Shown here: positions 21,472-39,287 of the stretch, in pieces
Numbering within the stretch: position 1 is the first letter of the stretch
Layout of the letters: the number at the start of each line of letters is the position of its first letter
Source: Gemmobacter fulvus
Lineage (GTDB): Bacteria; Pseudomonadota; Alphaproteobacteria; Rhodobacterales; Rhodobacteraceae
Assembly (NCBI RefSeq): GCF_018798885.1
Contig: NZ_CP076362.1
Coordinates: 124,001-188,000 of the forward strand
Direction of reading: 5' to 3'
DNA length: 64,000 nucleotides
Position numbers and translations under genes: made by a program
Notes under the pieces: model-generated
The model's input: only the letters and a program-made list of their open reading frames with translations
The model's database searches: none
What the model was told of the DNA's origin: nothing

Positions 21472-21488
21472 CGGCATCTGACGCCGTG

Positions 21489-21523: not shown

Positions 21524-21555
21524 TTCCCTTTTTCTTCTGAGCCTGTGAGACCCCG

Positions 21556-22137: not shown

Positions 22138-22162
22138 AGAACGGGGGGCAGGGATCACGCTG

Positions 22163-22750: not shown

Positions 22751-22782
22751 TCCCGCCTTCGTGCCCGATGGAGCCTGACCCG

Positions 22783-24288: not shown

Positions 24289-24319
24289 CCCCCTCTTCTC
24301 CGATCCGAAAGGACATCCG

Positions 24320-25721: not shown

Positions 25722-26096
25722 ATGACATCCCCCGAGATCCTCAACCTGATTGGCCGCCTCTGCGTGGCAGGCTATTTCCTGTGGTCGGTGCCTTTCAACC
25801 TGGGTGCGCGCGGGCATCATCTGGCCGAATTCCGGCGCATCGGGGTGCCGGGGGGGCCAGTTCTGTTCGCGGGAGGAATTGCGCTCAGCCTGGTGGGCAG
25901 CGTGTTGCTGCTCTATACGCCGACGGCGATGATCGGGGCGCTGATGCTGATCCTGTTCACCCTGACCGCGGACGCGCTGTTCCATCGGTTCTGGACCTAT
26001 GCCGACCCGCATGAGGCGGTGATCCACAAGTTTTTCCTGATCGAGCATATCGCGCTCTGCGGTGGTATCCTCGGGCTGGCGGCGGCAACGCTGTGA
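25722..26096 (+). CDS. DoxX-like membrane protein
   Basis: The 124-residue protein has four hydrophobic segments (about 5-22, 46-64, 68-88 and 105-122), as in DoxX/DoxD-type proteins, and the LAEFRRIGVPGGPVLFAGG segment found there between the first two spans. It begins at ATG 25722 behind CGGAG. Its stop overlaps the GTG of the RraA-like gene (GTGA), so the two are coupled. DoxX proteins are membrane components of diverse redox functions; none is predicted here. Confidence 0.78.
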   Translation: MTSPEILNLIGRLCVAGYFLWSVPFNLGARGHHLAEFRRIGVPGGPVLFAGGIALSLVGSVLLLYTPTAMIGALMLILFTLTADALFHRFWTYADPHEAVIHKFFLIEHIALCGGILGLAAATL

Positions 26097-26809
26097 GCGC
26101 GCTGTCACCGCAAACGCAGGCGCAGCTGCGGGCCGTGAGCATTTCCACCCTGTCGACCGTGCTGTTCAAACGGGGCTTTCGCAACCGCGTGATGCAGGGG
26201 GTCGGCCCTTTGTCCCCTTCGGCGGTGCGTATGGTCGGCCCCGCCTTCACGCTGCGGTTCATTCCCGCGCGCGAGGATCTGGACACGATGGAGGATTACG
26301 CGCTGCCAACCCATGTGCAGCGCCGCGCCATCGAGGAATGCCCGGCAGAGCATGTGCTGGTGATCGACGCGCGCGGCGACAGGGGGGCGGCCTCGGCAGG
26401 CGATATCATGATCGCGCGGCTGAAGGCGCGCGGCTGCGCCGGGGCGGTGACGGATGGCGGCTTTCGTGACACCGCCGATATCGCGGCCCTTGGGTTTCCG
26501 GCATTTCACAGCGGACCGGCCACGCCCTCCAGCCCGATCCGGCACCATCCGGCTGATCTGAACCTGCCGATCGGCTGTGGCGGGGTTGCGGTCTATCCCG
26601 GTGACATCGTGGTGTCAGACAGCGACGGTGTGATTGTCATCCCCCGCCATCTGGCCGATGAGGTCGCCGCCGAGGCGATGGCGATGACGGAATACGAGAC
26701 TTTCGCGGCAGAGCAGGTGGCGCAGGGGCGTTCGATCTTCGGGTTGTTCCCGTCGACAGAAGAAAGCCGCGCCGAATTCGCATTGTGGAAAGACGGCCCG
26801 GCTGTGTAG
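26093..26809 (+). CDS. RraA-family protein, likely HMG/CHA-type aldolase
   Basis: The 238-residue product has the RraA fold (formerly annotated as menaquinone methyltransferase/RNase E regulator). Class II aldolases of this fold cleave 4-hydroxy-4-methyl-2-oxoglutarate or 4-carboxy-4-hydroxy-2-oxoadipate to pyruvate. The active-site motif reads AVTDGGFRDTADI (about 120-132), supplying the Arg-Asp pair that binds substrate and metal, preceded by SAGDIMIARLKARG. It starts at GTG 26093. As the last gene of an import-catabolic operon it fits an aldolase better than a ribonuclease regulator. A strong hairpin follows. Confidence 0.82.
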   Translation: MSALSPQTQAQLRAVSISTLSTVLFKRGFRNRVMQGVGPLSPSAVRMVGPAFTLRFIPAREDLDTMEDYALPTHVQRRAIEECPAEHVLVIDARGDRGAASAGDIMIARLKARGCAGAVTDGGFRDTADIAALGFPAFHSGPATPSSPIRHHPADLNLPIGCGGVAVYPGDIVVSDSDGVIVIPRHLADEVAAEAMAMTEYETFAAEQVAQGRSIFGLFPSTEESRAEFALWKDGPAV

Positions 26810-26839: not shown

Positions 26840-27535
26840 TCAATGCGGCGAGGCCGAGATGATCCGCTGGCGCAGGCTGTCGACATGCGCCCGCATCGCA
26901 GTGGCGGCGGCCTGACCGTCGCGGATGCGGATCGCCTCAAGGATTGCGCCGTGTTCGCTGCCGGTCATGTTGAAATCATGGAAATGCCAGGTGGGCAGAA
27001 ACCAGATGCGCGACATGCGGTCATGGATGGCACTCTGGAAATCGCCCACCAGATGATTGCCTGAAAACTGACCGATCTTGTTGTGAAACAGCCTGTCCCA
27101 TTCCATCAGGGTCTTTTTGTCCAACGTCTCGTGACCGGAATCAAACCGGGCGCAAATCGCTGCCAGCTCGGCAAATTCCGCCTCGGTCCGGCGTTCGGCA
27201 CAGAGCTGGGCACAGAAGGGTTCCACCAGCGCGCGCGCTTCCAGGGCCAGATGGATCTCGGAAAGAGAATCCGACCGAACCAGAATCCCCTTGCGGGCGA
27301 TGATCTCGACCAGACCTTCCTGTTGCAGGCGGTGCAGGGCCTGATTCACCGGCGTGCGGCCAAGGCCAAGATCTTCGGCCACCTGGCTTTCCTGCAAGAA
27401 CTGGCCCGGCACATATTGCGCCGAGATCAGCAATTCCTTCAGCATGTCATATGCCGTTTCGGAAAGGGTTTTGGAGGCGGCCGAAAGCGGCCTGCCTGAA
27501 CGCTGCGCGAGGGTGGGTTTCTGCGACTCGGTCAT
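26840..27535 (-). CDS. GntR-family regulator, FCD (FadR) subfamily
   Basis: The 231-residue protein starts at ATG 27535 (AGGATAAA before it). The N-terminal winged helix (about 20-85) has LKELLISAQYVPGQFLQESQ and the GLGRTPVNQALHRLQQEG recognition helix. The C-terminal FCD domain has the metal/ligand pattern WDRLFHNKIGQFSGN and a late His in RAHVDSLRQRI. It is the last gene of the leftward molybdenum hydroxylase operon, 128 bases after coxG-like, and converges on the ABC operon, so it may control either or both. A TGATA-ATA-TATCA repeat is just upstream. Confidence 0.92.
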   Translation of the reverse strand: MTESQKPTLAQRSGRPLSAASKTLSETAYDMLKELLISAQYVPGQFLQESQVAEDLGLGRTPVNQALHRLQQEGLVEIIARKGILVRSDSLSEIHLALEARALVEPFCAQLCAERRTEAEFAELAAICARFDSGHETLDKKTLMEWDRLFHNKIGQFSGNHLVGDFQSAIHDRMSRIWFLPTWHFHDFNMTGSEHGAILEAIRIRDGQAAATAMRAHVDSLRQRIISASPH

Positions 27536-27581
27536 TTTATCCTGCAACCTTATACTTTGCTCTGAAACACGCCTGATACTT

Positions 27582-27594
27582 TGATAATATATCA
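27582..27594. promoter_or_regulatory. TGATA-N3-TATCA inverted repeat upstream of GntR gene
   Basis: TGATA-ATA-TATCA is a perfect 5-3-5 inverted repeat, 47 bases upstream of the GntR start and in a rare AT-rich stretch. Its 11-base core ATAATATATCA recurs at 44967-44977 upstream of the polyamine-type ABC operon. Inverted repeats of this size suit GntR/FadR-type dimers. Confidence 0.55.
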
Positions 27595-27663
27595 GAGCAA
27601 AGCCAAAGCGCATAAAAAAATCGCGCTCTGCGAACGGATTTTCCTGCGACCTTCCGTCACGGA

Positions 27664-28272
27664 TCACACCTGCTGTGTCAACAGAAGGGCGATCAGGGCA
27701 AATACCGCCGCCGTGGCCCAGCCGGCCAGCGCAAAGTTGCGCCAGCTGACCCCGGCGACGGCAGCCATGGGCACCACAGCACCGGGCGCGGGTATCCGCA
27801 GGGTGGCGGGGGCAGGTGTCGCGGAAACCTCGCCGCCGGTGACTACTTCGGAAAAGCGCTGAAAGAACTGGCCCGCCAGCGCATTGGCCACGCCCTTGAT
27901 CATCCGTGAACCCAGTTGCGCGATCTTGCCGCCCAGGGCTGCCTCGACGGTATAGGACAGTTTCGTGCCCCCCTCGACCGTTTCCAGCCGGATCAGCGCC
28001 GAGCCTTTGGCGAAACCGGCCACACCGCCCGATCCCTGCCCGGTGATGCGATACGACTGCGGCGCGTCAATCTCCGACAGGGTGACATGGCCGGTAAAAC
28101 TGGCGCTGACCGGGCCGATCTTCTGGACCACACGCGCCGTCATCTCGGTCGGGCTGACCCTATCCAGCGCTTCACAGCCCGGAATGCAGGCGCGCAGGAT
28201 GGCGGGGTCGTTCAGCCCGGCCCAGACGGTCTGGATCGGGGCGGCAATGACGGTTTCACCGGAAAGTTCCAT
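27664..28272 (-). CDS. CoxG-like SRPBCC protein with C-terminal membrane anchor
   Basis: The 202-residue protein belongs to the CO-dehydrogenase subunit G (CoxG) group. The SRPBCC domain spans about 1-150 (start MELSGETVIAAPIQTVW, then LNDPAILRACIPGCEALD). A Pro/Ala-rich linker and one hydrophobic span (about 178-198) follow. CoxG proteins are accessory to molybdenum hydroxylases and are thought to recruit the enzyme to the membrane for electron transfer to quinones. Here it follows the first S and M subunit genes, which supports membrane-linked electron acceptance by this hydroxylase. Confidence 0.9.
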   Translation of the reverse strand: MELSGETVIAAPIQTVWAGLNDPAILRACIPGCEALDRVSPTEMTARVVQKIGPVSASFTGHVTLSEIDAPQSYRITGQGSGGVAGFAKGSALIRLETVEGGTKLSYTVEAALGGKIAQLGSRMIKGVANALAGQFFQRFSEVVTGGEVSATPAPATLRIPAPGAVVPMAAVAGVSWRNFALAGWATAAVFALIALLLTQQV

Positions 28273-28283
28273 TCCACGCTCCT

Positions 28284-28685
28284 TCAGCGGCGGCCCTTGC
28301 CGATATGGGCGATGCCTTCGATTTCGACATAGATCGTCGGCCCGGCAAGGTTTGACACCTCCACCAGCGAGCAGGCCGGAAAATCACCGCTGAAAAACTC
28401 GGCGCGGGCTTTCCACACGCCCTGACGGTGCTGCATCCGGGTGACATAAATGGTCAGTTTGGTGAAATCCGACATCTGCCCGCCCGCAGCCTCGATCAGG
28501 GCCTTGTGTTTGCCGAGGATGATCTTTGTCTGCTCATATTCATCCGCCCCATCAATGGTAATCAGATCGGCATTGCGCGAGGTGAGGCCCGACAGATAGG
28601 CGATTCCATCCACCACAAGGCAGTTGGACCACATGCCGGCAATGGGTTCGGCAACAAGTGGGCTGGTGTAACGGGTAATGGTCAT
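28284..28685 (-). CDS. RidA-family protein lacking the deaminase arginine
   Basis: The 133-residue protein has the YjgF/YER057c/UK114 fold, with GIAYLSGLTS, KTKIILGKHKALIEAAGG-type helix and a closing VEIEGIAHIGKG. RidA proper has Arg105 in a PARSxVEV motif that binds the carboxylate of imine substrates. Here this segment reads FPACSLVEVSNL, with Cys in place of Arg, so enamine/imine deaminase activity of the RidA type is unlikely. Such Rid2-7 type proteins often sit in aromatic catabolic operons. It lies between the FAD subunit and CoxG genes. Function is open. Confidence 0.88.
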   Translation of the reverse strand: MTITRYTSPLVAEPIAGMWSNCLVVDGIAYLSGLTSRNADLITIDGADEYEQTKIILGKHKALIEAAGGQMSDFTKLTIYVTRMQHRQGVWKARAEFFSGDFPACSLVEVSNLAGPTIYVEIEGIAHIGKGRR

Positions 28686-28705
28686 CGGATGTCCTTTCGG
28701 GAGGG

Positions 28706-29503
28706 TCAGGCCAGCGCACGGATCACGGCGCGGCGGATGACATGGGGCAGGATCTGCGCACGGTAGGTTTTGGCGGCGTGCAAATCTTCGTTGAGCTCTT
28801 CGGGATCAAAGCGCAGGGTCCGTGCGATGTCCGGTGTGAAATCGGCCGAAAGTGTGGCTTCGGCGGCGCTGTCGCGGAACACGCAAGGACCGGCCCCGTT
28901 GATCGCAACGCGGGTAATTGCACCGAACCGCGCGACAAAGGCACCGCAGGTCACATAGCCCGATGCCGGGTTCGGCACCTTGAAATAGCCCGCCGCATCC
29001 GGCCTGCGAAAGCTGATGGCGGTCAGGATTTCATCCCGTTGCAGCGCGGTGGAAAACATGCCGGTAAAGAACGCGTCCGCCGCGATCTGGCGGCGGTCGG
29101 TGTGGATGGTGGCACCCAGGGCCAGCACCGCCGCCGGATAATCCGCTGCGGGATCATTATTGGCCACCGATCCGCCCAGCGTGCCCATATTGCGCACCAG
29201 CGGGTCGGCAATGCCGCCTGCCAGCGCCGACAAGGCCGGGATCCGCGCCAGAATGTCAGCCGAGGCCGCCACTTCGGCATGGCGGGTCATCGCGGCGATG
29301 GTGATCGTGGTGTCCTGCACGGTGATGCCGCACAGCGCGGTGATTGCCTGAAGGTCGATCAGCGTGGAATGGGCGGTCAGGCGGTGTTTCATCGCCGGCA
29401 GCAAGGTTTGCCCCCCGGCCAGCAGGCGGGGTTCGACATCGGTGCGCAGGATCTCCAGCGCCTCGGACAAGGTGGTGGGGCGCTGATAGTCAAACGGATA
29501 CAT
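28706..29503 (-). CDS. Molybdenum hydroxylase 1, FAD subunit (CoxM/XdhB type)
   Basis: The 265-residue protein has the vanillyl-alcohol-oxidase type FAD-binding domain of CoxM. Motifs are AGGQTLLPAMKHRL (about 33-46), RNMGTLGGSVANNDPAADYP (about 100-120, contacting FAD) and the C-terminal domain ending in ETYRAQILPHVIRRA-like residues. It transfers electrons from the iron-sulfur subunit to an acceptor. It overlaps the upstream 2Fe-2S subunit gene by 14 bases, a tight coupling. A start at 29503 (MYPFDYQRPTTL) matches the typical beginning of this subunit. Confidence 0.94.
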   Translation of the reverse strand: MYPFDYQRPTTLSEALEILRTDVEPRLLAGGQTLLPAMKHRLTAHSTLIDLQAITALCGITVQDTTITIAAMTRHAEVAASADILARIPALSALAGGIADPLVRNMGTLGGSVANNDPAADYPAAVLALGATIHTDRRQIAADAFFTGMFSTALQRDEILTAISFRRPDAAGYFKVPNPASGYVTCGAFVARFGAITRVAINGAGPCVFRDSAAEATLSADFTPDIARTLRFDPEELNEDLHAAKTYRAQILPHVIRRAVIRALA

Positions 29504-29981
29504 CGTCCCCCCCCTGCATCCTCGCCTGCCCGTCCAGCAGGGCGGCCACGATGTTGTTGTATCCGGTGCAGCGGCAGATATTGCCTTCCAGCTGGCGCCG
29601 CGCCTCGGCCTCGGTCAGGGGGGCGTGGTCGCGGGCCACCGCGATGCAGGTCATGATCATGCCGGGGGTGCAATAGCCGCATTGCAGCGCGTGATGGTCG
29701 ATGAAGGCCTGTTGCATCGGATGCAATGTTGCACCGGCCATGCCTTCGATGGTCTGCACCACATGCCCCTGCGCCTGCATCGCCAGCACGGTGCAGGCTT
29801 TCACCACCTGCCCGTCCAGATGGACCGCACAGCAGCCGCATTGCGTGGTATCGCAGCCGACATGCGGGCCGGTCAGGCGCAATTCCTCACGCAGGAATTC
29901 GACCAGCAGCATCTGCGGCGGGATGGTGCGGCTGACCTCGCGGCCATTCACGGTCAGGGTGAGGGGGGCATTGCGGGTCAT
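29490..29981 (-). CDS. Molybdenum hydroxylase 1, 2Fe-2S subunit (CoxS/XdhC type)
   Basis: The 163-residue protein binds two [2Fe-2S] clusters. The N-terminal plant-type ferredoxin domain has GCDTTQCGCCAVHLDG with a later Cys (VKACTVLA). The C-terminal helical domain has QCGYCTPGM and CRCTGY, which bind the molybdopterin-proximal cluster. Length and order match CoxS/QorS. It lies 1 base after the YCII gene and 14 bases overlapping the FAD subunit. Together with the genes at 28706 and 30687 it completes the first hydroxylase. Confidence 0.95.
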   Translation of the reverse strand: MTRNAPLTLTVNGREVSRTIPPQMLLVEFLREELRLTGPHVGCDTTQCGCCAVHLDGQVVKACTVLAMQAQGHVVQTIEGMAGATLHPMQQAFIDHHALQCGYCTPGMIMTCIAVARDHAPLTEAEARRQLEGNICRCTGYNNIVAALLDGQARMQGGDDVSV

Positions 29982-29982
29982 G

Positions 29983-30270
29983 TCACAGGTTCCGCGTCTG
30001 CCAGCGCCACGCATCGACATGCACGGTCGCAAACAGGCCCGCCAGCACGAAAGGGTCACGCGCGGCAATGGCCTCGGCTGCGGCCAGACTGTCGGCCTCC
30101 AGCACATACATGCCGCCAAGCTTCTCTGCGCCATCCGGGCCGAGCAGCGGGCCGCCGATTATGGCGGCGCTGCCCAGCGATTGCATGAAGGCGATATGTG
30201 CGGGCCGTGTGGCATCGCGCAGAGCCGCAAGCCCCGGCGCATCGCGCGTATAGACAACAAAATGCCCCAT
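29983..30270 (-). CDS. YCII-related (ABM-like) small protein
   Basis: The 95-residue protein has the YCII fold: MGHFVVYTRDAPG at the start, HIAFMQSLGSAAIIGGPLLG in the middle, and EADSLAAAEAIAARDPFVLAGLF, with the conserved His-Asp pair of the family at RPAHIAF and ARDPF. Family members are implicated in chlorinated and hydroxylated aromatic catabolism as lyase, dehydrochlorinase or isomerase. It lies between the cupin and 2Fe-2S subunit genes. Which step it catalyses cannot be told. Confidence 0.85.
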   Translation of the reverse strand: MGHFVVYTRDAPGLAALRDATRPAHIAFMQSLGSAAIIGGPLLGPDGAEKLGGMYVLEADSLAAAEAIAARDPFVLAGLFATVHVDAWRWQTRNL

Positions 30271-30273
30271 GGT

Positions 30274-30690
30274 TCAGCCCTTCTGCTGGCCGTCAAGAAA
30301 GCCGCCGATGGTGTCATCGGTGTGGAACGAGGGCTTTTCGTAATAATGCGGGCCGTCATAAATCTCGACCAGACGGCATTTGGTCACCGCCACGGTCGGG
30401 CCATGCGGATGATCCTTGGGGTTCATGTAAAAGGCCCCCGGTTTCAGCACGATGTCGCTGTCGGTATAGGCATATTCGCCTTCCAGACAGTACATGAACT
30501 GGTTCGACGCATGTGAATGCTTGATCGGGATCCCGCCGCCCACATCATATTCCAGCAGGGCGATGCTTGCCCCAGTGGCCGGGTTTTTCCACAGGAAATA
30601 CTGCCGGAAGCCGTATTCGGGAAAGTTGAGCCAGTTTTCGGCCTTCAGGTCTTTGTCGTGGATCAGAACTTCCAGAGTGTCGGGGGTCAT
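30274..30690 (-). CDS. Cupin-domain protein in the molybdenum hydroxylase operon
   Basis: The 138-residue protein has cupin motif 1 as IPIKHSHASNQFMYCLEGEY (about 65-84, with His, His and Gln) and motif 2 as KDHPHGPT (about 106-113). The metal is probably Fe(II) or Mn(II). GFRQYFLWKNPATGA upstream resembles cupins near ring-cleavage pathways. Its start overlaps the stop of the large subunit by 4 bases, so expression is coupled. A dioxygenase or isomerase role is possible. Confidence 0.82.
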   Translation of the reverse strand: MTPDTLEVLIHDKDLKAENWLNFPEYGFRQYFLWKNPATGASIALLEYDVGGGIPIKHSHASNQFMYCLEGEYAYTDSDIVLKPGAFYMNPKDHPHGPTVAVTKCRLVEIYDGPHYYEKPSFHTDDTIGGFLDGQQKG

Positions 30691-33035
30691 GGGGTTTCCT
30701 CCTCTTGTCGTGGCGCCGGGGTCAGGGCGCGCAGGATCTGCGCGGGGGTGACCGGCATGGTCAGGGTGCCTGCGGCCTGTGGCCCCAGCGCGTGTTCAAT
30801 GGCTTGCACGATGGCGGGCGGGGCGGCGATCGTACCGACCTCGGCCCCGCCCTTGACGCCAAGCGGGTTGGTTCTTGTGGGCGTGAGGTGCAGCGCCGAG
30901 ACGATCGGCGGCATGTGATGCGCGCGTGGCATCGCATATTCGGTGAAGGCCGCTGTCAGAAGCTGGCCTTCCGCATCATAGACCACCTGTTCCATCAGCG
31001 CGGCCCCGATGCCCTGCGCCGCCGATCCGTGCAGCTGGCCCTCCAGCAGCATGGGATTGGCGACCACCCCCACATCATCGGCCGCTGCATAGCGGGCCAG
31101 ATGCACCGTGCCCAGATCCGGGTCGATCTCGACCTCGACGATATGGCAGCCATTGGGGTAATTCTGCGGGGTGGCGGTATAGGTTCCGACCGCCTCAAGT
31201 CCCACGCCCAGATGGGCGGGAAAGCCCATGGTGCGGTAACTGGCCTTGGCAACCTCGGTCAGCGACAGCGCCGTGTTGCTGCCGGTGGCGGTGAACATGC
31301 CGTCGGCAAAGCTGAGCGTTTCGGGCGCAACCTCCATCAGCCAGGCGGCAATCGGGGTGGCTTTGGCCAGAATGGCGTCACAGGCCTGACGCAGCGCCGA
31401 TCCGCCCACCGTCAGCGACCGTGAGGCGTAGGTGCCGCCGCCATAGGGCACCTGATCGGTGTCGCCTTCGACAAAACCGATCTGATCATAGGGCAGGCCC
31501 AGCCAGCCATGCACCATCTGGGTATAGACGGTATGGTGGCCTTGCCCGTGGCTGAACGTGCCTGCGATGATGGTGGCATGTCCGGTCGGATCGAACTGCA
31601 CCGCCATGCGTTCATTGCTGATCGCCGACACTTCGACAAAAAAGCTGAGCCCGCGCCCGCGCAGCCTGCCTTGCGCCGCCGAGGCGGCCCGGCGGGCGGC
31701 AAAGCCGTCCCAATCCGCCAGCTTCAGCGCCGTGTCCAGCACACCGGCGAAATCACCGCAGTCATAGGTATCCAGCAGCGCCGTCTTGTAGGGCATGTCT
31801 GTGGCGGCAATCAGGTTGCGGCGGCGGATCTCCACCGGATCAAGCCCGATCTGCGCCGCCGCCTTGTCCAGCATCCGCTCCAGAAAATATGTGGCTTCCG
31901 GCCGGCCTGCGCCGCGGTAACTGGTGGTGGTGCGGGTGTTGGAAAAGACGCCCTGCACCCGCACATGCGCGGCGGGCATGGCGTAAGGCCCGGCCAGCAT
32001 CCGCGCCGACAGGAACGGCGACACGCCGGTCGCCGGGCCAAGCCGACAGCCCAGATTGTGCTGCGTCAGGGCCTCCAGCGCCAGAATGTGCCCTTCGGCA
32101 TCAAAGGCCATCCGCCCGCTGCCGATCTGATCGCGGCCCTGAAAATCGCTCAGGAACGCTTCAGAGCGCGAGGCCACCCATTTCACCGGCCGCCCGGTAT
32201 GCCGGGCCGCCCACAGCACCAGCACATCCTCAGGGTAAAGCCGGCCCTTCAGCCCGAAGCCGCCACCAACATCCTGCGCCGAGACGCGCACCTGATGGGC
32301 GGGCACCTGCAACACGTTTTCGGCCAGCAAGCGCCGCACCGAATGCGGATTCTGGGTGGATGTGATCAGATGCCAGCGCTGGTCACGCGCATCATGGATG
32401 CCGATGGAGCCGCGCGGCTCCAATGCGGCATGGGCAATGCGGTGCTGCCGGGTTGTCAGGCTGACGACATGGGCCGCCCCGGCAAAGGCGTCTGCCACCT
32501 TGGCCGCATCGCCGATGGTGGCGTCAAAGCACAGGTTGCCTGGCGCGTCGGGATACAGCTGCGGCGCGCCTTCGGCCAGGGCCGCCTCCAGCGTGGCCAC
32601 CAGCGGCAAGGGCTCATAGGCGCAGTCGACCAGCTCTGCCGCGCTTTGGGCCTGCCTGCGGGTTTCGGCGATGACAAGCACCACCGGATCGCCGATGACC
32701 CGCACCCGGTCCATCGGCAGGGCGGGAAACGGGGTGCGGATCCACTGGCCCCGGGTGATCGCGGGCACCATGCTTTCGCAAGGCAGATCGCCCCAGCCAA
32801 GTGCGGCGAAATCGGCCCCGGTCAGCACCGCCACCACGCCATCCGCCGCAGCCGCCACCGTGGTATCGACCGACAGGATGCGCGCATGGCCGTGATCGCT
32901 GCGCACCAGCGCCATGTGCAACATGCCCGGCAGCACCACATCATCGACGTAGCGCCCGGCGCCGGTCACCAGCCGTGCGTCCTCGCGCCGGGTAACTGGC
33001 TGTCCGAAGATACCTGTGTCGGGGGCATGTGTCAT
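30687..33035 (-). CDS. Molybdenum hydroxylase 1, molybdopterin-binding large subunit
   Basis: The 782-residue protein belongs to the xanthine oxidase/CoxL family (expected about 770-810). The cofactor loop reads SYRGAGRPEATYF, the form II type (AYRGAGR), not the AYRCSFR of authentic CO dehydrogenase, so CO oxidation is unlikely. GGGFGLKGR near residue 260 and the C-terminal KGGAEVGTIAAPPAI with the catalytic Glu are also present. GTG 33038 is an alternative start 3 bases upstream. It should hydroxylate an aromatic or aldehyde C-H using water. It is preceded in the operon by the extradiol dioxygenase and followed by cupin, YCII, S and M genes. Confidence 0.94.
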   Translation of the reverse strand: MTHAPDTGIFGQPVTRREDARLVTGAGRYVDDVVLPGMLHMALVRSDHGHARILSVDTTVAAAADGVVAVLTGADFAALGWGDLPCESMVPAITRGQWIRTPFPALPMDRVRVIGDPVVLVIAETRRQAQSAAELVDCAYEPLPLVATLEAALAEGAPQLYPDAPGNLCFDATIGDAAKVADAFAGAAHVVSLTTRQHRIAHAALEPRGSIGIHDARDQRWHLITSTQNPHSVRRLLAENVLQVPAHQVRVSAQDVGGGFGLKGRLYPEDVLVLWAARHTGRPVKWVASRSEAFLSDFQGRDQIGSGRMAFDAEGHILALEALTQHNLGCRLGPATGVSPFLSARMLAGPYAMPAAHVRVQGVFSNTRTTTSYRGAGRPEATYFLERMLDKAAAQIGLDPVEIRRRNLIAATDMPYKTALLDTYDCGDFAGVLDTALKLADWDGFAARRAASAAQGRLRGRGLSFFVEVSAISNERMAVQFDPTGHATIIAGTFSHGQGHHTVYTQMVHGWLGLPYDQIGFVEGDTDQVPYGGGTYASRSLTVGGSALRQACDAILAKATPIAAWLMEVAPETLSFADGMFTATGSNTALSLTEVAKASYRTMGFPAHLGVGLEAVGTYTATPQNYPNGCHIVEVEIDPDLGTVHLARYAAADDVGVVANPMLLEGQLHGSAAQGIGAALMEQVVYDAEGQLLTAAFTEYAMPRAHHMPPIVSALHLTPTRTNPLGVKGGAEVGTIAAPPAIVQAIEHALGPQAAGTLTMPVTPAQILRALTPAPRQEEETP

Positions 33036-33108
33036 CACAGCTCACATTCTCTGGTGCGGGCGGGCAGGGGGGCGGTCCTCAGGCGCCGGGGGCGCCTTGG
33101 GCAGGGCG

Positions 33109-34050
33109 TCAATCGAAGAAGGTATCGGGCGGGGCCATGCCCCATTGCGTCGTTTCATGCGCGCCACCGACAAACCGCACCGGGACATAGGCGTCATTGA
33201 TGACATCGGTGTCGGTATAATGTTCGATCCGGTTGCCGAACGGGTCCAGCCAGTAATCATAGATCAGGCTGCCAAGATAATGGCGGCCCACACCGGCATC
33301 CAGCGTCCAGCCCTTCGCGACCAGATGATCGTGGCCTGCGGCGACGGCATCCAGATCCAGCACCTCGTAAGACGAATGGTGGCAGCCGAAGTGCTTGGAT
33401 TTGTTGATCAGGATACAGTGGTGTTCGACAAATTCCGCCCCACGGTCAAAGCGCAGGAAAGTGCCCACGGTGATCGGCTCCGGCTCTGCCGGGGCGCAGA
33501 TGTAATCGGCGGGGCAAAGCGCGAAATGATCGGTGAACCAGGTGATCTCGGACAGCGCATCCGGCACCCACAGCACGAAATGCCCGATCCGCAACACCGG
33601 CGTTGCTTCGGGCCGCTGCCGCACCGCCGAATTGTGGCGCAGGTGTTCCGACGCAAAGTTCATGCGATACGAGCGCCGCACAGGCATTTCCGGCACGGTG
33701 GCCACGCCATGCTCGATCCAGATCGTGTGTTTGTTGGGGGTGGTCAGCGTGACACGAAACCCGCCACCGGGATCGGTGATCGCGGTGACAGGGGACGCGC
33801 CGGGGATGCGGGCCGCCTTGTCCAGCTCTGCCCGTGTTGCCACGGTGAAGGCACCCCCCAGAAAGCGATTGTCAGGCCCCAGCCGCGCCACATGCACATG
33901 GTGGTTGGCCCCCGAGCCGCGCATGTAAAGCGCATCGGCGGTGCGGGCAGAGCGGGTCATGCCGAAATCAATCAGAAACCGTTCCATCAGATCAAGGTCG
34001 GTCACCTGATAGGCGGTATAACCGACGTCGAGCAGGTTCACTTTATCCAT
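33109..34050 (-). CDS. Type I extradiol ring-cleavage dioxygenase (VOC superfamily)
   Basis: The 313-residue product has two VOC domains as in BphC-type extradiol dioxygenases. The Fe(II) ligands are predicted at His157 (in RIGHFVLWV), His224 or His225 (in GCHHSSYEVLDLD) and Glu276 (in GNRIEHYTD); the last two motifs match HHxxFEV and NxxEYxTG. It begins at ATG 34050, just 7 bases after the second large subunit gene, with GAGGG ahead (ATG 34053 also possible). It should cleave a catechol-like intermediate made by the two hydroxylases. The ring is unknown. This gene is the key to the operon's logic. Confidence 0.87.
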   Translation of the reverse strand: MDKVNLLDVGYTAYQVTDLDLMERFLIDFGMTRSARTADALYMRGSGANHHVHVARLGPDNRFLGGAFTVATRAELDKAARIPGASPVTAITDPGGGFRVTLTTPNKHTIWIEHGVATVPEMPVRRSYRMNFASEHLRHNSAVRQRPEATPVLRIGHFVLWVPDALSEITWFTDHFALCPADYICAPAEPEPITVGTFLRFDRGAEFVEHHCILINKSKHFGCHHSSYEVLDLDAVAAGHDHLVAKGWTLDAGVGRHYLGSLIYDYWLDPFGNRIEHYTDTDVINDAYVPVRFVGGAHETTQWGMAPPDTFFD

Positions 34051-34057
34051 CATGCCC

Positions 34058-36421
34058 TCACAGATACTGGCCGGAAACGCGGCTGCCGCCGGGGGCGGCC
34101 CCTTCGCCGTGGCGCAATGCCCACAGCACCTTGTCCGCCGCCATCGGCAGCGAATGGATGCGCACGCCAATGGCGTCATAAATCGCATTGGCGATGGCCG
34201 GGGCGGGGTTCACCAGCCCCGCCTCACCGCAGCCCTTGGCCCCGAATGGCCCGGCCTCCAGCGGATCCTCGACCAGCAGATGCGCCATGTCCGGCACATC
34301 CATCGTGGTGGGCAGGCGATAGGTCAGCAGACTGTCGGACAGCACGCGCCCGGTATCGGGATCAATCACGAAATCCTCGGTCAGCGCAAAGCCGATGCCC
34401 TGCACAAGGCTGCCCTCCATCTGTGCCTCGACCAGCAGCGGGTTGATCGCCCGGCCGATGTCATGCGCCGAGACATAGTTCAGCACCGTGACCAGCCCGG
34501 TTTCGGTATCCACCTCCACCTCGGCAAAGGCCGCCTGATGATTGGGGTGGTGCGAGGTGGACAGATAGGAGCCAGAGGCATTGAGCTGGCTGCCCCCCGA
34601 TCCGAAATCATAGATCGCGGCATAGGCCACCTGCGCCACGTCAAACGCCACGCCGGGGGCGGCATCGCTGGTGATGCGTCCGGCCCGCACCTCGATCTGG
34701 TCGGGCGTCACCCGCACCTGATGCTCTGCAAACAGCGCGACCGCGCGGTCGCGGATCTGCTCCTTGATCTTCACCCCCGCTGCCGCCACGGCGTTGCCGA
34801 TCACCAGCATCGACCGGCTGGCATGGGAGCCGATGTCGAACATCGTCACATCGGTATCGCCGGTCGACACGCGGATCTGTTCATAGCGCAGACCGCTGGA
34901 TTCCGCCGCCACCTGCGCCAGCGCGCCGATGATGCCTTGCCCCATCTCGCAGGGGCTGACGATCAGATTGAGCGCGCCATCCGACAGCACCTTCATCACG
35001 CAGCTGGAATGTTCCAGCAGAAACCCCCCTGCGCCCGAGGCATGGGTCAGCACCGACATGCCGATCCCGCGTTTGTAGCGGCCCGGCTTGGCCACGCCCC
35101 AGCCTTGCCATTTGTCCTTGTAGCCGATTTTTTCGGCGGCCAGATGGATACATTCCTCCAGTTTGGTATGTTCCAGCGGCACGGGCACAAAACAGCTGGG
35201 ATCGCCGGGCACCTTCAGGTTTTTCAGGCGGAACTCCATCGGGTCCATGCCGATCTTTTCGGCCAGACGATCCAGCGCCTGCTGAAAGACAAAGGCCCCT
35301 TCGGGATTGCCATAGCCGCGGAAACCGCTGGTCGTGGGGGTATTGGTATAGGCCACGGTCAGATGGCCGCGGATATTGTCACATTTCAGAACACCCAGCG
35401 TTTTCTGCATGTTGACAGTGGCGGTGGTGGCGGAATGGGACAGATAGGCGCCGCTGTCGGCCACGATGATCTGTTCGATCGCCAGCAGCTTGCCGTCCTT
35501 GTTGGCGGCGACGCGGATGGTCTGATGCTGATCGGTGCGCGATGAGTAGCCCGAGAAATCCTCTTCGCGGGTGGTGGTCACCCGCACCGGACGCTTGCAG
35601 GCCCGTGCCAGCAGCACGGCCACCGGCTCCACGCCCAGGGCAAGGCGCGCGCCGAACCCGCCGCCGATGGTGGGCGACAGCCAGCGGATGTCACCATCCG
35701 ACAGATCGGGGAACACACGTTTCGTCAGGTGCTTTTTCGCCAGATGCGGCCCCTGCGACGGTGAAATGATGACCAGCCGCCCATCGGATTCGTGATAGGC
35801 GATGGCGATGTCTGTCTCCAGATGCAGGTGCTTCTGGCGCGAGTTCACGCCGGTAAACTCGACCACGGCCTCGGCCTCGGCAAAGGCGCGGTCCACGTCG
35901 CCGCTGTTGAACGGATGGTCCATCTCGAAGGCGATATTGCCCGCAACATCGTCATGCACAGAGGGTGCGCCGGGTTCCAGCGCCTTGTGCGGATCAAGGA
36001 TCATCGGCAGCAGCTCGTACTCCACCTCGATCAGCTCCAGCGCCGCTTCGGCGGTGTAGATGTCTTCGGCGGCGACAGCGGCGATCCAGTCCCCGACATA
36101 GCGGGCCTTGTCCGTCAGGATATACTGATCCTGACGTTCGCCGGTGAAGGCAAATTCCGGCAGGGCCTCGGCCATGGTCGACCGGGAAAAGCGGCTGTCG
36201 GGGCAATCCTTGTGTGTCAGCACGCACAGCACCCCGGGCAGGGCGGCGGCCTTGCTGGTATCAATGCGCAGGATGCGGGCATGGGCATGCGGGCTGGCGA
36301 GGATCCGGCCCTCGACCATGCTGGGCACGGTCATGTCATCGGTATATTTGGCCTCGCCCGTCACCTTGCCGTAAATGTCGGGCTTGGTCAGGCGTTTGCC
36401 GACATAAGCGAATTCGGTCAT
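34058..36421 (-). CDS. Molybdenum hydroxylase 2, molybdopterin-binding large subunit
   Basis: The 787-residue protein is of the same family but a different branch from hydroxylase 1. The cofactor loop reads GFRGYGNPEGAFVFQQALDR and the catalytic glutamate lies in FGAKGCGEAGLVNPAPAIANA, nearer to 4-hydroxybenzoyl-CoA reductase and nicotinate-type enzymes than to CoxL. SPTIGGGFGARL at about 265 contacts the cofactor. It overlaps the upstream 2Fe-2S subunit by 4 bases and is followed by the extradiol dioxygenase 7 bases later. Substrate is not predictable. Confidence 0.94.
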   Translation of the reverse strand: MTEFAYVGKRLTKPDIYGKVTGEAKYTDDMTVPSMVEGRILASPHAHARILRIDTSKAAALPGVLCVLTHKDCPDSRFSRSTMAEALPEFAFTGERQDQYILTDKARYVGDWIAAVAAEDIYTAEAALELIEVEYELLPMILDPHKALEPGAPSVHDDVAGNIAFEMDHPFNSGDVDRAFAEAEAVVEFTGVNSRQKHLHLETDIAIAYHESDGRLVIISPSQGPHLAKKHLTKRVFPDLSDGDIRWLSPTIGGGFGARLALGVEPVAVLLARACKRPVRVTTTREEDFSGYSSRTDQHQTIRVAANKDGKLLAIEQIIVADSGAYLSHSATTATVNMQKTLGVLKCDNIRGHLTVAYTNTPTTSGFRGYGNPEGAFVFQQALDRLAEKIGMDPMEFRLKNLKVPGDPSCFVPVPLEHTKLEECIHLAAEKIGYKDKWQGWGVAKPGRYKRGIGMSVLTHASGAGGFLLEHSSCVMKVLSDGALNLIVSPCEMGQGIIGALAQVAAESSGLRYEQIRVSTGDTDVTMFDIGSHASRSMLVIGNAVAAAGVKIKEQIRDRAVALFAEHQVRVTPDQIEVRAGRITSDAAPGVAFDVAQVAYAAIYDFGSGGSQLNASGSYLSTSHHPNHQAAFAEVEVDTETGLVTVLNYVSAHDIGRAINPLLVEAQMEGSLVQGIGFALTEDFVIDPDTGRVLSDSLLTYRLPTTMDVPDMAHLLVEDPLEAGPFGAKGCGEAGLVNPAPAIANAIYDAIGVRIHSLPMAADKVLWALRHGEGAAPGGSRVSGQYL

Positions 36422-36909
36422 GCTGCCACCTCACGCGCGGCGTTGATCTTTTGGGCGGCATCCATCACCGCATCGAGGATTTTCACATAGCCGGTGCAGC
36501 GGCAGATATTGCCCGACAGCGCCCGCTTCACATCCTCGCGCGAGGGGCGGGGATTGGCATCCAGCAGCGCCTTGGCGGTCATCAGCATCCCGGCGGTGCA
36601 ATAGCCGCATTGGGCGGCGCAATGGTCGATGAAGGCCTGTTGCAGCGGATGCAGCGTGCCATCGGCACTGCGCAATCCTTCGACGGTTTCCAGCGCGCGG
36701 TCCTGGGCGGTGACGGCCAGGGTCAGGCAGGAGCAGATCGGCTGATCGTCGGCCAGCACCGTGCAGGCCCCGCAATTCCCCGAGGCACAGGCCCGTTTTG
36801 TGCCGGTCAGCCCGATATGATCGCGGATCACATCGACCAGCAGCATATGGGGTTCGATGATCGCGTCGCAGTGCTTGCCGTTTACGCGGAAGGTTCCGAT
36901 TTGTTTCAT
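36418..36909 (-). CDS. Molybdenum hydroxylase 2, 2Fe-2S subunit
   Basis: The 163-residue protein has the two [2Fe-2S] domains of XdhC/CoxS type: CASGNCGACTVLADDQPICSC (first cluster) and QCGYCTAGM with CRCTGY (second cluster). Start at ATG 36909 with GAAGGA; a TTG 15 bases upstream is less likely. It is not a copy of the first 2Fe-2S protein but a separate branch. It overlaps the large subunit start by 4 bases and follows the FAD subunit by 11 bases, giving an M-S-L order here, against L-cupin-YCII-S-M for hydroxylase 1. Confidence 0.94.
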   Translation of the reverse strand: MKQIGTFRVNGKHCDAIIEPHMLLVDVIRDHIGLTGTKRACASGNCGACTVLADDQPICSCLTLAVTAQDRALETVEGLRSADGTLHPLQQAFIDHCAAQCGYCTAGMLMTAKALLDANPRPSREDVKRALSGNICRCTGYVKILDAVMDAAQKINAAREVAA

Positions 36910-36920
36910 GGTGCGGTCCT

Positions 36921-37832
36921 TCAATAAGCCAGATGAGCGTCTTCGGCGGGGTCATGGCGGGATCTGGCGCGGCTTGCGGCCTGTTGCAGCACGTCGCGCG
37001 CCAGAATGCGGATCCACTCCGACCGGATTTCCTCGACCCAGGGGGCATCGGTCATCGGGGCCACGGCGGCCATCGCCTGTGCCGCCGCCGCGTCGAACAC
37101 CGCTTCATCCGCCAGTTGCCCGACAAGGGCGGCCTCGGCCGCCGGAATACGGATCGGATGCGCCCCGATGCAGCCGAGCGCCAGTGTCGCATCAAGGATG
37201 CGCTCGCGGGCCGGGTCCAGCGCGATATAGGCGGCGGCATTGATCTTGTGCAGATCGCCCTCGCGGCGGCGGGCCTTGTAGATCTTCTTGAAGGCCGATC
37301 CGGCATCGGGGCCGGGCGGCGGCAGGAACATGGATGCGACCATTTCCCCCGGCTGCACGGCGGTCTGCCGGTCTGCGCCATAGAAGGCCTCGATGGGAAC
37401 GATGCGGGTGGCCGTGCCATCGGTGATGCGCAGCTCTGCCCGATGTGCAAAGAGCGCGGTCGGCAGATCGTAATAGTTCACCGCCGCGCAGACATTGCCG
37501 ATCAGCGTGCCCATATTGAGGATATGCGGCGGGTGCAGCTGTTCGATTGCCTCATGCAGCGCCGCCCACCGCTTGCCCACCCAGATATGGCTGGCCAGCC
37601 GGTTGATGCGCACTTGCGCGCCCACTTCGACCCCTATCTTGGGATGGGCGGTGAACGTGTCCAGCCCCGGCAATTTCATGATGCTGACAAGGTTCTGATA
37701 CCGCACCGCACCACGCCGCATCGCCAGAACCAGTTCACATCCCCCGGCAAACAGCCGCGCGCCCGGGGCCTGTGCCAGTGCAAGCGCCTCTGTCATGCTG
37801 GTTGGTTCGTGAAAGTCGAAAGGCTGGATCAC
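36921..37832 (-). CDS. Molybdenum hydroxylase 2, FAD subunit
   Basis: The protein is 303 residues from GTG 37832 (VIQPFDFHEP, aligning with the MYPFDYQRP start of the other FAD subunit). A TTG at 37841 preceded by GAGGGG at a better distance is a strong alternative start. FAD motifs are LFAGGCELVLAMRRG (near 35-50) and LNMGTLIGNVCAAVNYYDLP. The C-terminal KINAAAYIAL region follows. It is the first gene of the twelve-gene leftward operon. Divergent from the FAH-family hydrolase, with an AT-rich repeat between. Confidence 0.92.
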   Translation of the reverse strand: MIQPFDFHEPTSMTEALALAQAPGARLFAGGCELVLAMRRGAVRYQNLVSIMKLPGLDTFTAHPKIGVEVGAQVRINRLASHIWVGKRWAALHEAIEQLHPPHILNMGTLIGNVCAAVNYYDLPTALFAHRAELRITDGTATRIVPIEAFYGADRQTAVQPGEMVASMFLPPPGPDAGSAFKKIYKARRREGDLHKINAAAYIALDPARERILDATLALGCIGAHPIRIPAAEAALVGQLADEAVFDAAAAQAMAAVAPMTDAPWVEEIRSEWIRILARDVLQQAASRARSRHDPAEDAHLAY

Positions 37833-37904
37833 CCGTCCCAATTCAATACCCCTCTGAGTTGCTGCACGCCTTGGTGCTGCGATGGGCAGCCTAGCACGCT
37901 TAAC

Positions 37905-37936
37905 TGAAATTCTACAGATGTTCGGTTGATATTTCA
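37905..37936. promoter_or_regulatory. Inverted repeat in divergent hydroxylase/FAH promoter
   Basis: TGAAAT (37905-37910) and ATTTCA (37931-37936) are spaced arms, the second within TTGATATTTCAA. The blocks ACTGAAAT and TTGATATTT both also occur in the divergent promoter at 20308-20330. A TTGACT at 37941-37946 may be the -35 of the rightward promoter. The shared blocks suggest a common regulator. Confidence 0.45.
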
Positions 37937-37997
37937 AGCGTTGACTTTGCTGATGGGCAGAGTATCGGTGAGGCAGGCTCACCAAGGAGGCGGCAGG

Positions 37998-38846
37998 ATG
38001 AAGCTATTGCGATATGGCCCGGCTGGGGCAGAACGGCCCGGTCTGCTGGATGCGGACGGCATCCTGCGCGACCTGAGCGGGGTTGTGCCCGACATTGGCG
38101 GCGATACGCTGTCCGACGCCGGGCTGGCCCGCCTGCGGGAGCTTGACCCCGCGCAACTGCCTGCCGTGCCCGGTCAGCCGCGCATCGGCCCCTGTGTGGC
38201 GGGTGTGGGCAAGTTCATCTGCATCGGCCTGAACTACGCCGATCATGCCGCCGAAACCGGCAAATCCGTGCCGCCAGAGCCGGTGATCTTTCTGAAGGCC
38301 ACCTCGGCCATCTGCGGCCCGAACGATCCGATGGAAATTCCGCAAGGCGCCGTGAAGGCGGATTGGGAGGTGGAGTTGGGCATCGTCATCGGCGCGCGGG
38401 CAAAAAACATCCCGCAGGCGCAGGCGCTGGATCATGTGGCGGGCTATTGCACCATCAATGACGGATCAGAGCGCGCCTTCCAGTCTGACATGCAGGGCCA
38501 GTGGACCAAGGGCAAAAGCCATGACAGTTTCGGCCCGATCGGGCCGTGGCTGGTGACGCGAGACGCGGTGCCCGATCCGCAATCACTCGATCTGTGGTGC
38601 GAGGTGGACGGCATCCGCCATCAGGCGGGCAATACCCGCACCATGGTCTATGGCGTGGCCTATCTTGTGGCCTATCTCAGCCGGTTCATGACGCTGCATC
38701 CCGGCGACATCATTGCCACCGGCACACCGCCCGGTGTCGGGCTGGGCCTGAAGCCGCCGGTCTTCCTGCGGGCAGGCCAGCGGATACGGCTTGAGGTGCA
38801 GGGTCTTGGGATGCAAGATCACCTGACCGTCGATGTTCAACCCTGA
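37998..38846 (+). CDS. Fumarylacetoacetate hydrolase (FAH) family hydrolase
   Basis: The 282-residue protein is a single-domain FAH-family enzyme, shorter than true fumarylacetoacetase. Landmarks are FICIGLNYADHAAETG, FLKATSAICGP, DWEVELGIVIG (metal-binding acidic residues) and IIATGTPPGVGLG. Members hydrolyse acylpyruvates or isomerise/hydrate 2-hydroxy-dienoates of meta cleavage. The strong RBS AAGGAGG precedes the ATG. It is divergent from the hydroxylase-dioxygenase operon and is therefore a good candidate for the step that follows extradiol cleavage. Confidence 0.92.
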   Translation: MKLLRYGPAGAERPGLLDADGILRDLSGVVPDIGGDTLSDAGLARLRELDPAQLPAVPGQPRIGPCVAGVGKFICIGLNYADHAAETGKSVPPEPVIFLKATSAICGPNDPMEIPQGAVKADWEVELGIVIGARAKNIPQAQALDHVAGYCTINDGSERAFQSDMQGQWTKGKSHDSFGPIGPWLVTRDAVPDPQSLDLWCEVDGIRHQAGNTRTMVYGVAYLVAYLSRFMTLHPGDIIATGTPPGVGLGLKPPVFLRAGQRIRLEVQGLGMQDHLTVDVQP

Positions 38847-38869
38847 AATGCGGATCGGAGACCCCTGAC

Positions 38870-39157
38870 ATGGCCGCCTATTTCATTGCCCATGGCACCG
38901 TGAAGGATGCCGCGAAAATGCTGGAATATGTTGATCGGTCCGGCCCCTGCGTTGCGGCCTTCGGCGGGGAATTCCTGACCGTGGGCGAGGTGAAATCCGT
39001 GCTGACCGGACGGCACGATCACAAGCGCACCGCAATTTTCAAGTTCCCCGACGTGGCTGCCGCCGAAGGCTGGTACAATTCCGACGCCTATCGCGCGCTG
39101 TGGCCGCTGCGCAATGCGGCGGGGGACTTCGATTTCATCGTGATGGAAGAATTCTGA
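38870..39157 (+). CDS. DUF1330 family protein
   Basis: The 95-residue dimeric alpha-beta (ABM-like) protein has DUF1330 marks: AYFIAHGTVKD at the start, GEFLTVGEVKSVLTG, and the DAAAEGWYNSDAYRALWPLR-like helix that gives the family its YxSxxYxxL pattern. It begins 23 bases after the FAH-family gene, in the same operon. Functions are unknown for the family, though they commonly lie in aromatic degradation clusters. Confidence 0.87.
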   Translation: MAAYFIAHGTVKDAAKMLEYVDRSGPCVAAFGGEFLTVGEVKSVLTGRHDHKRTAIFKFPDVAAAEGWYNSDAYRALWPLRNAAGDFDFIVMEEF

Positions 39158-39287
39158 CGCCCGGCGGGCGCAGCACTCCAGATCCCTGACCTGATCTCTG
39201 CCAAGGCGCTCACCTGTTGAGGGCATTGGCCGGGCTTTGGCTTGCCCGCATAACCCGCTTTTTCCCCCCTTTTGGAAAGGACACACC

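Follow-up and report, generated by a model that had tools for sequence, protein, structure and literature searches.

The window, the stretch of 64,000 nucleotides analysed here, carries on its minus strand twelve genes (positions 26840 to 37832) that encode two molybdenum hydroxylases, termed Mo1 and Mo2 in the following, an extradiol dioxygenase and several further proteins (Table 1). All twelve are present in the order given in an earlier note on this DNA, which described them as mostly overlapping or near-abutting; the gaps, counted leftward from FAD2, are 11, −4, 4, 70, −4, 3, 1, −14, 20, 11 and −4 bases and thus span −14 to +70 bases. The starts of FAD2, the extradiol gene, FeS1, YCII and, as probable, FAH listed in Table 1 are refined ones. 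The genes for FAH, the DUF1330 protein and the malonic-semialdehyde-reductase-like protein are oriented divergently from the operon.

Table 1. Genes of the molybdenum hydroxylase/extradiol dioxygenase locus and its surroundings (positions refer to the window)
Feature	Positions	Strand	Remarks
FAD2, FAD subunit of Mo2	36921..37832	-	FAD_binding_5, CO_deh_flav_C; GTG start at 37832
FeS2, two-[2Fe-2S] subunit of Mo2	36418..36909	-	Fer2_2; cysteine motifs
large2, molybdopterin subunit of Mo2	34058..36421	-	XdhA/4-HBCR branch; loop GFRGYGN; Glu in KGCGE
VOC (type I) extradiol dioxygenase, 314 aa	33109..34053	-	glyoxalase (VOC) domain; His-His-Glu ligands
large1, molybdopterin subunit of Mo1	30687..33038	-	CoxL/Kdh/Qor/glyceraldehyde dehydrogenase branch; SYRGAGR; Glu in KGGAE
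Cupin, small core protein	30274..30690	-	Pfam; 66-84% identical to its counterparts in the 11 other clusters
YCII-domain protein	29983..30270	-	Pfam
FeS1, two-[2Fe-2S] subunit of Mo1	29490..29981	-	Fer2_2
FAD1, FAD subunit of Mo1	28706..29503	-	FAD_binding_5
RidA-like protein without catalytic arginine	28284..28685	-	L-PSP (RidA)
CoxG/SRPBCC protein, possible Mo1 accessory factor	27664..28272	-	CoxG
GntR/FCD regulator	26840..27667	-	Pfam
FAH-family hydratase/hydrolase, divergent	37998..38846	+	start probable, behind good ribosome-binding site
DUF1330 protein, divergent	38870..39157	+	
Nitroreductase-fold protein, putative malonic semialdehyde reductase	39237..39938	+	passes RutE model: 273 bits, cut-off 152
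RraA-like protein (aldolase/decarboxylase family)	26093..26809	+	present with 12/12 clusters
Ribose-type (CUT2) ABC importer, TorT-like binding protein, CMD-domain proteins	20353..25327	+	
GMC oxidoreductase	18852..20267	-	

The search for the same gene order in other genomes found the identical twelve-gene arrangement in G1525 and G1367, two members of the same family; the arrangement is therefore conserved and not a product of chance. In both genomes, an ABC transporter of a different type lies between FAD2 and FAH. The stretch with the CUT2 importer and the CMD-domain proteins is kept beside the clusters of G421, G422, G1525 and G1367, as is the GMC oxidoreductase, and a more distant version of this stretch (31–47%) is found beside the cluster of G1072. 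A megablast comparison of the operon region with plasmids returned only fragments, covering 3–5% of the query, from 6 records. A promoter-like site (37937–37909, minus strand) is situated immediately upstream of FAD2, but the three promoter-like sites of the region equal the shuffle mean of 3.1; the twelve genes presumably form one transcript.

Mo1 and Mo2 are both members of the xanthine oxidase family, each with MoCoBD/hammerhead domains, two [2Fe-2S] motifs, an FAD subunit and the catalytic Glu; Pfam recognizes MoCoBD_1/2 and Ald_Xan_dh_C in both large subunits, Fer2_2 in FeS1 and FeS2, and FAD_binding_5 in FAD1 and FAD2. In a tree of 25 large subunits, the Mo1 and Mo2 groups form separate supported clades, with the Mo1 large subunits of six clusters united in a single one (100/100). 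Large1 and large2 are therefore no recent duplicates, and the earlier note was right to see two complete hydroxylases of different branches, distinguished by the loops SYRGAGR and GFRGYGN, instead of a simple duplication. The catalytic Glu is kept in 6/6 Mo1 and 5/5 Mo2 enzymes; in this motif check, the FeS1 sequence of G1367 was a fragment of 4 residues, and the search for the glycine loop returned nothing for G1525 and an aberrant result for the large1 protein of G1367.

For all three Mo1 subunits, the top NCBIfam model is that of the aldehyde-oxidizing glyceraldehyde dehydrogenase, an identity that is rejected because every subunit scores below the curated equivalog cut-off (565/790, 192/290 and 175/350 bits). 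Nor is large1 an aerobic CO dehydrogenase, whose active-site loop contains a cysteine (AYRCSF; PMC8305194), since SYRGAGR has none and both CO dehydrogenase models stay below cut-off. Among solved structures, the three best matches of large1 are, in this order, a CoxL (450 bits), Kdh (428 bits) and Qor (401 bits). Large2 and FAD2 have their best NCBIfam matches in xanthine dehydrogenase models, and 1rm6 is the closest solved relative of large2 (352 bits). 4-Hydroxybenzoyl-CoA reductase and XdhA-type xanthine dehydrogenase are nearest to large2, but its scores lie below the curated cut-offs (595 bits against 780 for XdhA); an assignment of large2 and FAD2 to the reductase fails at 495 against 994.55 and 81 against 404.55 bits, respectively.

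A core composed of the extradiol dioxygenase, the cupin, the RidA-like protein, the RraA-like protein and FAH is common to the 12 clusters that were mapped (a set without the class matches G138, G261 and G394 and the weaker matches G040 and G045), two of which reside on Streptomyces plasmids. Alignments of the core proteins begin at the tblastn match rather than at checked starts, and some are shortened (e.g., FAH of G1249 and Streptomyces). The two-His-one-Glu iron ligands of the extradiol enzyme, at the GH, HH and IEHYTD/VEHYTD positions that align with 3b59, are intact in all 12 clusters and mark the protein as a type I (VOC) enzyme. It cannot be assigned to any of four named extradiol families, as it scores 58.9 (HpaD), 41.9 (BphC), 40.1 (catechol 2,3-dioxygenase) and 20.7 bits (HsaC) against cut-offs of 320–450. 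The core set is absent from the stretches read around extradiol relatives with 35–42% identity (L011, L012, L046, L050–L056), nine of which, L054 being left out, served as outgroups. A structure prediction from four extradiol sequences was poor (mean pLDDT 48.9) and was not used.

The RidA-like protein is a tempting sign of nitrogen release, yet it lacks the arginine required for imine hydrolysis: the protein from the window has Cys where RutC (3v4d) and 5yu2 carry Arg, and the position is occupied by Cys, Ser or Ala in 12/12 clusters. The corresponding Arg105 of TdcF is described as essential for imine hydrolysis, and about 10% of RidA proteins are said to have Ser there (PMC4433059). We therefore do not regard the protein as a RidA-type imine/enamine deaminase. 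Matches to CoxG are found in the Mo1-containing clusters of G1525, G1367, G1072 and G1293 (37–69%) and, at 30%, in G421, and none was reported in the Mo1 cluster of G423. Among the 12 clusters, the nitroreductase-fold gene accompanies only those of the window, G1525 and G1367.

In the DNA that was read, all 12 clusters encode exactly one of two enzymes, Mo1 or an aldehyde dehydrogenase of the piperidine-6-carboxylate type; a thirteenth cluster, on a plasmid of Streptomyces coelicoflavus, has an annotated aldehyde dehydrogenase and no molybdenum enzyme. The six cluster aldehyde dehydrogenases group together (93/99), and that of L007, Mesorhizobium sp. CU3 (14758–16299), attains 653 bits with the piperidine-6-carboxylate dehydrogenase model (cut-off 730). 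On the extradiol tree, this trait switches three times. No more than two independent contrasts lie behind the exclusion if starred branches are counted, and three if all branches are, so few that a sign test, which needs at least six, cannot reach significance.

Mo1 occurs without Mo2 in G1072 and G1293, which possess an HpaB monooxygenase, and in G423, which possesses a PhzS-like one; G421 and G422, in contrast, have Mo2 but no Mo1, and both encode a divergent HpaB (30–33% identical to the other HpaBs). The Mo2 genes are located directly upstream of the extradiol gene, the position taken by HpaB in G1072, G1293 and the two Streptomyces clusters; the PhzS-like enzyme, present in three clusters, is encoded elsewhere. 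Neither monooxygenase is linked to the clusters of the window, G1525 and G1367; a search of the window's genome for HpaB, run without a positive control, gave no match, and the sole PhzS-like match there is 32% identical.

The core in 12 clusters and the iron ligands retained in each of them uphold the view, already put forward in the earlier note, of a ring-degradation operon in which extradiol cleavage is followed by FAH; its substrate is plausibly an N-heteroaromatic compound. The exchange pattern suggests that each molybdenum enzyme would replace an ordinary one, Mo2 a flavin oxygenase and Mo1 an aldehyde dehydrogenase. We tentatively favour, as possible and close to probable, a meta-cleavage pathway in which molybdenum hydroxylases would perform both interchangeable oxidation steps, i.e., an all-molybdenum version of an amn-like route. 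Mo2 would place a water-derived hydroxyl group on a ring that is already hydroxylated and probably N-heteroaromatic, which would produce a vicinal diol, a task that HpaB or the PhzS-like flavin monooxygenase would carry out in other clusters; the extradiol enzyme would then open the ring, and Mo1 would oxidize the aldehyde carbon thus exposed to an acid, as the piperidine-6-carboxylate-type aldehyde dehydrogenase would elsewhere. The RidA-like protein, FAH and RraA would subsequently yield a 2-oxo acid (probably pyruvate) together with a small aldehyde; the latter is probably malonic semialdehyde and may be reduced by the RutE-like nitroreductase. These roles are derived from gene presence and two to three independent switches; the slot for the first step is not clean because G421 and G422 carry Mo2 plus HpaB, and Kdh and Qor, relatives of Mo1 whose heteroaromatic substrates are known, act as hydroxylases of rings and not of aldehydes, which speaks against the aldehyde role. 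The missing arginine of the RidA-like protein and the generic aldehyde dehydrogenases near some Mo1 clusters also count against the favoured reading.

This kinship of Mo1 with enzymes acting on N-heteroaromatic rings fits the proposal of the earlier note that Mo1 and Mo2 jointly make the diol by sequential ring hydroxylations, as does the report that Kdh is the second hydroxylase of its own pathway (PMC8305194). We nevertheless do not favour this proposal and judge it unlikely: Mo1 is also found with HpaB or the PhzS-like enzyme, Mo2 also without Mo1, and Mo1 and the dehydrogenase exclude each other in 12/12 clusters. Moreover, molybdenum hydroxylases usually attack carbons adjoining a ring nitrogen, and the two carbons beside ring nitrogen are vicinal only in pyrazine-type rings. 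In the clusters of the window, G1525 and G1367, both enzymes are present and no linked HpaB or PhzS-like monooxygenase was found, and there the two-hydroxylation version may therefore apply.

Both the exclusion pattern and the relatedness of Mo1 to ring hydroxylases would be accounted for if Mo1 hydroxylated, before cleavage, the ring carbon that otherwise emerges as the aldehyde, so that cleavage gave the acid directly and no dehydrogenase was needed; this would call for a ring carbon activated towards attack by such an enzyme, and we consider the route rather unlikely. Equally doubtful is a scheme in which the conserved ring-cleavage module repeatedly acquired molybdenum enzymes in place of both the oxygen-dependent flavin hydroxylase and the NAD-dependent aldehyde dehydrogenase, with Mo1 attacking a cyclized, aromatic ring-cleavage product at the carbon that the dehydrogenase oxidizes in the open chain; cyclization would proceed as in the conversion of aminomuconate semialdehyde to picolinate, and only the cleavage step itself would need oxygen. 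Finally, it is very improbable that Mo1 serves a side substrate while an unlinked aldehyde dehydrogenase oxidizes the semialdehyde and the exclusion reflects chance and shared ancestry: the switches are few, and the window harbours a generic aldehyde dehydrogenase (15824–17251; such enzymes, with 24–29% identity, lie near some Mo1 clusters) and its genome a 50% identical one, but core genes lie between those for Mo1 in an operon of overlapping genes, and Mo1 is one clade across six clusters.

Should the favoured all-molybdenum reading be correct, a single aromatic pathway can have its aldehyde dehydrogenase replaced by one molybdenum hydroxylase and its flavin monooxygenase by another. Clusters that possess or lack a given enzyme represent natural swaps, and their exchange pattern offers a direct test. 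The catabolic route, for which the very conserved cupin may serve as a marker, would be common to Alphaproteobacteria, a second lineage of their phylum and Streptomyces. In agreement with the earlier note, which named no described system of this kind, term searches of an open-access library found no description of such a cluster; one may exist in subscription papers.

Kdh (6-hydroxypseudooxynicotine dehydrogenase of Arthrobacter nicotinovorans) and Qor (quinoline 2-oxidoreductase) share subunit make-up and catalytic Glu with Mo1, but their similarity to large1 is remote only, and to our knowledge neither of their pathways contains this extradiol module. The 4-hydroxypyridine pathway is rejected as an explanation because it employs different enzymes, an amidohydrolase-type dioxygenase opening the ring. 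The lum cluster for riboflavin/lumichrome degradation in Nocardioides simplex has, as here, an extradiol dioxygenase next to a hydroxylase resembling xanthine oxidase; it is likewise rejected, since its enzymes differ: LumJ, one protein, is the sole molybdenum enzyme described, a Rieske dioxygenase makes the catechol, and the word RidA is absent from the main text (PMC12746152).

The decarboxylase and the hydratase of the 2-aminophenol amn pathway are FAH-fold enzymes. In Burkholderia xenovorans LB400 and Pseudomonas sp. AP-3, this pathway is described as following the same logic of extradiol cleavage and semialdehyde oxidation, and as continuing with a RidA-family deaminase, a decarboxylase, a hydratase and later enzymes (PMC3790839, PMC6742747). 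The operon cannot represent the amn-type pathway itself, which requires a LigB-type aminophenol dioxygenase (AmnB of LB400 shares 89% identity with a LigB), whereas the dioxygenase here is of the VOC type; furthermore, the RidA-like protein of the operon lacks the conserved arginine, and the operon employs molybdenum enzymes as well as an RraA protein. The HpaB-VOC-RraA-cupin-ALDH-RidA-FAH clusters on Streptomyces plasmids possess the same core, with extradiol enzymes that are 45–48% identical; in the stretches seen they contain no molybdenum enzyme, and a flavin monooxygenase and an aldehyde dehydrogenase occupy the two slots.

The twelve-gene operon of the window is real, conserved and catabolic; all twelve genes were found in the order that the earlier note had given, with joints of −14 to +70 bases between them, and the ring-cleavage route read from them there was right. 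The extradiol enzyme, a VOC protein of 314 residues that keeps the iron ligands, reached no named extradiol family at the curated cut-off in the model search. Both molybdenum hydroxylases, Mo1 (large1, FeS1, FAD1) and Mo2 (large2, FeS2, FAD2), are complete three-subunit enzymes that possess the cluster-binding cysteines and the catalytic glutamate, and they are, as had been claimed, unrelated to each other. Large2 has XdhA as its best model and 4-hydroxybenzoyl-CoA reductase as its nearest solved chain; large1 lies closest to the models of glyceraldehyde dehydrogenase and aerobic CO dehydrogenase and to the solved chains of a CoxL (450 bits), Kdh and Qor, and every model matched by either subunit scores under its curated cut-off. 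Large1 was rejected as a CO dehydrogenase, since the cysteine loop of that enzyme is absent. In FAD2, the second FAD-binding glycine motif is changed to GTLIG; in the FAD2 proteins of the relatives, too, a pattern search recovered no second glycine motif.

Features of the window and of related clusters (G, genome; L, fetched DNA stretch)
Feature	Position	Strand or setting
Twelve-gene operon	26840-37832	minus
FAD2	36921-37832	minus, in operon
FAH-family gene	37998-38846	divergent
DUF1330 gene; gene passing the malonic semialdehyde reductase model		divergent, beside FAH
RraA gene; ribose-type ABC importer		downstream of operon, convergent
TorT-like binding protein	20353-21471	component of the importer
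Second YCII-domain protein	40003-40335	adjoins binding-protein-dependent ABC transporter
Intradiol (catechol-type) dioxygenase	62164-63036	
Aromatic-ring FAD hydroxylase	2349-4250	
FeS2-like gene, G423	L009:8785-9921	
Methyltransferase-like protein and corrinoid protein, G474	L047:12-1613, L048:4088-4867	adjoin core cluster
RibF-like proteins	L007:18422-19393, L049:17485-18339	beside HpaB-bearing clusters
CoxL-like large subunit	L054:222-3514, L055:9579-13815	beside VOC extradiol gene

Matches to the extradiol protein occur in few genomes: 3/61 among relatives (E 1e-30), 11/385 in the class (1e-60), 2/398 in the phylum, 3/248 in the window's own family, 3/200 in the family of G1072 and 1/198 in that of G423 (all 1e-75), and 3/346 in the family of G421 (1e-80), counts that take in the query's own or the centre genome where present; the module is therefore rare. 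Three loci (73-85% identity) emerged from a scan of genome_contigs, and 125 plasmid records matched, three from Streptomyces at 45-48% and the others listed below 40%. Ten class matches besides the window were obtained, and the stretches read in all seven that were fetched (G157, G096, G334, G412, G222, G102, G392) lack the cupin-RidA-RraA core.

The tblastn maps of twelve clusters span 21 to 104 kb apiece, and every one shows genes for the extradiol enzyme, the cupin, RidA and RraA together with one of the FAH family. Six of them, namely the window, its sister clusters G1525 and G1367, G423, G1072 and G1293, carry Mo1. The other six, G421 (Mesorhizobium sp. CU3), G422, G474, G1249 and two Streptomyces plasmids, whose annotation a third matches, carry a dedicated aldehyde dehydrogenase with 53% or more identity to the one in G421. 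None of the mapped stretches holds both or neither; distant aldehyde dehydrogenases (24-29%) occur near both kinds of cluster alike. The extradiol proteins form one clade separate from nine outgroups (100/99), and the Mo1 proteins form one clade, which branches in the order that their six clusters show in the extradiol tree. The dedicated dehydrogenases of the clusters form a group at 93/99, just missing the tool's mark for firm support, and their neighbour is a 50% identical homologue elsewhere in the window's genome. On the extradiol tree, the choice between Mo1 and the dehydrogenase switches three times, and with only two to three independent pairs, significance in a sign test is out of reach.

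Mo2 is found in the window, G1525, G1367, G421 and G422. HpaB occurs in G421, G422, G1072, G1293 and the two Streptomyces clusters, those of G421/G422 being only 30-33% identical to the others, and a PhzS-like monooxygenase in G423, G474 and G1249 (nearest solved chains 2rgj and 3c96, which we take to be PhzS; 282 bits). The relatives weaken the proposal that the diol is made by both hydroxylases, because they possess each without the other, beside a flavin monooxygenase. It may still hold for the window, G1525 and G1367, to which neither HpaB nor a PhzS-like enzyme is linked; the window's genome yielded no close flavin monooxygenase, an HpaB search run without a positive control being empty and the best match to the PhzS-like enzyme reaching only 32% identity. 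At the Mo2 position, G423 carries FAD2-like and FeS2-like genes (38-40%), the FeS2-like one being prolonged by a long C-terminal extension. No large2 gene lies in the stretch covered, a state that resembles decay of a Mo2 whose place a flavin enzyme has taken. The G423 genome holds seven other CoxL-like large subunits elsewhere, and a distant partner is therefore possible. RibF-like proteins, recognized by eye beside HpaB-bearing clusters, perhaps serve flavin supply.

The mutual exclusion of Mo1 and the dedicated dehydrogenase suggests that they supply the same oxidation, a role that fits the model search, in which every Mo1 subunit had an aldehyde-oxidising enzyme as its top NCBIfam match, though each under cut-off. 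With 653 bits against the model of L-piperidine-6-carboxylate dehydrogenase (cut-off 730), the dedicated dehydrogenase is similar to an enzyme that acts on an amino-semialdehyde in its ring-closed form; 2-aminomuconate semialdehyde, the analogous ring-cleavage product, closes to picolinate. Conversion to picolinic acid is named in the title of PMC3790839. A molybdenum hydroxylase could oxidise the carbon on which the dehydrogenase acts, either in such a cyclic form or in the still intact ring. By analogy, the lower part of the route may follow the amn pattern: oxidation, a RidA-family step, FAH-family hydration, and finally an aldol cleavage by RraA that splits 4-hydroxy-2-oxoadipate into pyruvate and malonic semialdehyde. 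The latter end product would account for the RutE-like gene, which of the 12 clusters only the window, G1525 and G1367 were found to carry. Against such steps count the RidA-like protein, whose Cys replaces the arginine that imine hydrolysis requires and that RutC and a second solved homologue possess, and the cupin, to which no role is assigned.

The ring is probably N-heteroaromatic, judging by Mo2, the piperidine-carboxylate-type dehydrogenase, the TorT-like binding protein and a Streptomyces transporter annotated as cytosine permease. The TorT-like protein scores 202.5 against one TorT model (cut-off 200, just over) and 149 against another (cut-off 310, under). For G474, an N-methylated substrate is hinted at by a protein similar to trimethylamine methyltransferase (203 bits, cut-off 525) and by a corrinoid protein recognized by eye. 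Elsewhere in the window lie an intradiol dioxygenase and an aromatic-ring FAD hydroxylase, which give this DNA the look of an island of aromatic catabolism.

A related, simpler CoxL-like and extradiol pairing is found in L054/L055, where the large subunit is a tree neighbour of the Mo1 clade (90/84); two FAH-family genes also adjoin it in L055. A cousin lower module in Agrobacterium tumefaciens pQ15_94_2 (L060) and Mesorhizobium loti pML2037 (L061) comprises cupin (46%, 43.5%), Ldh-family oxidoreductase, RidA, FAH and an FAD-dependent oxygenase or oxidoreductase; no extradiol gene lies in this row, and in L061 a short VOC protein is encoded at some distance from it. As far as our literature search reaches, no published description of the operon was found. 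Through the gene content of the relatives, the part played by each molybdenum enzyme can be tested directly, and the operon represents a new form of the meta-cleavage type.
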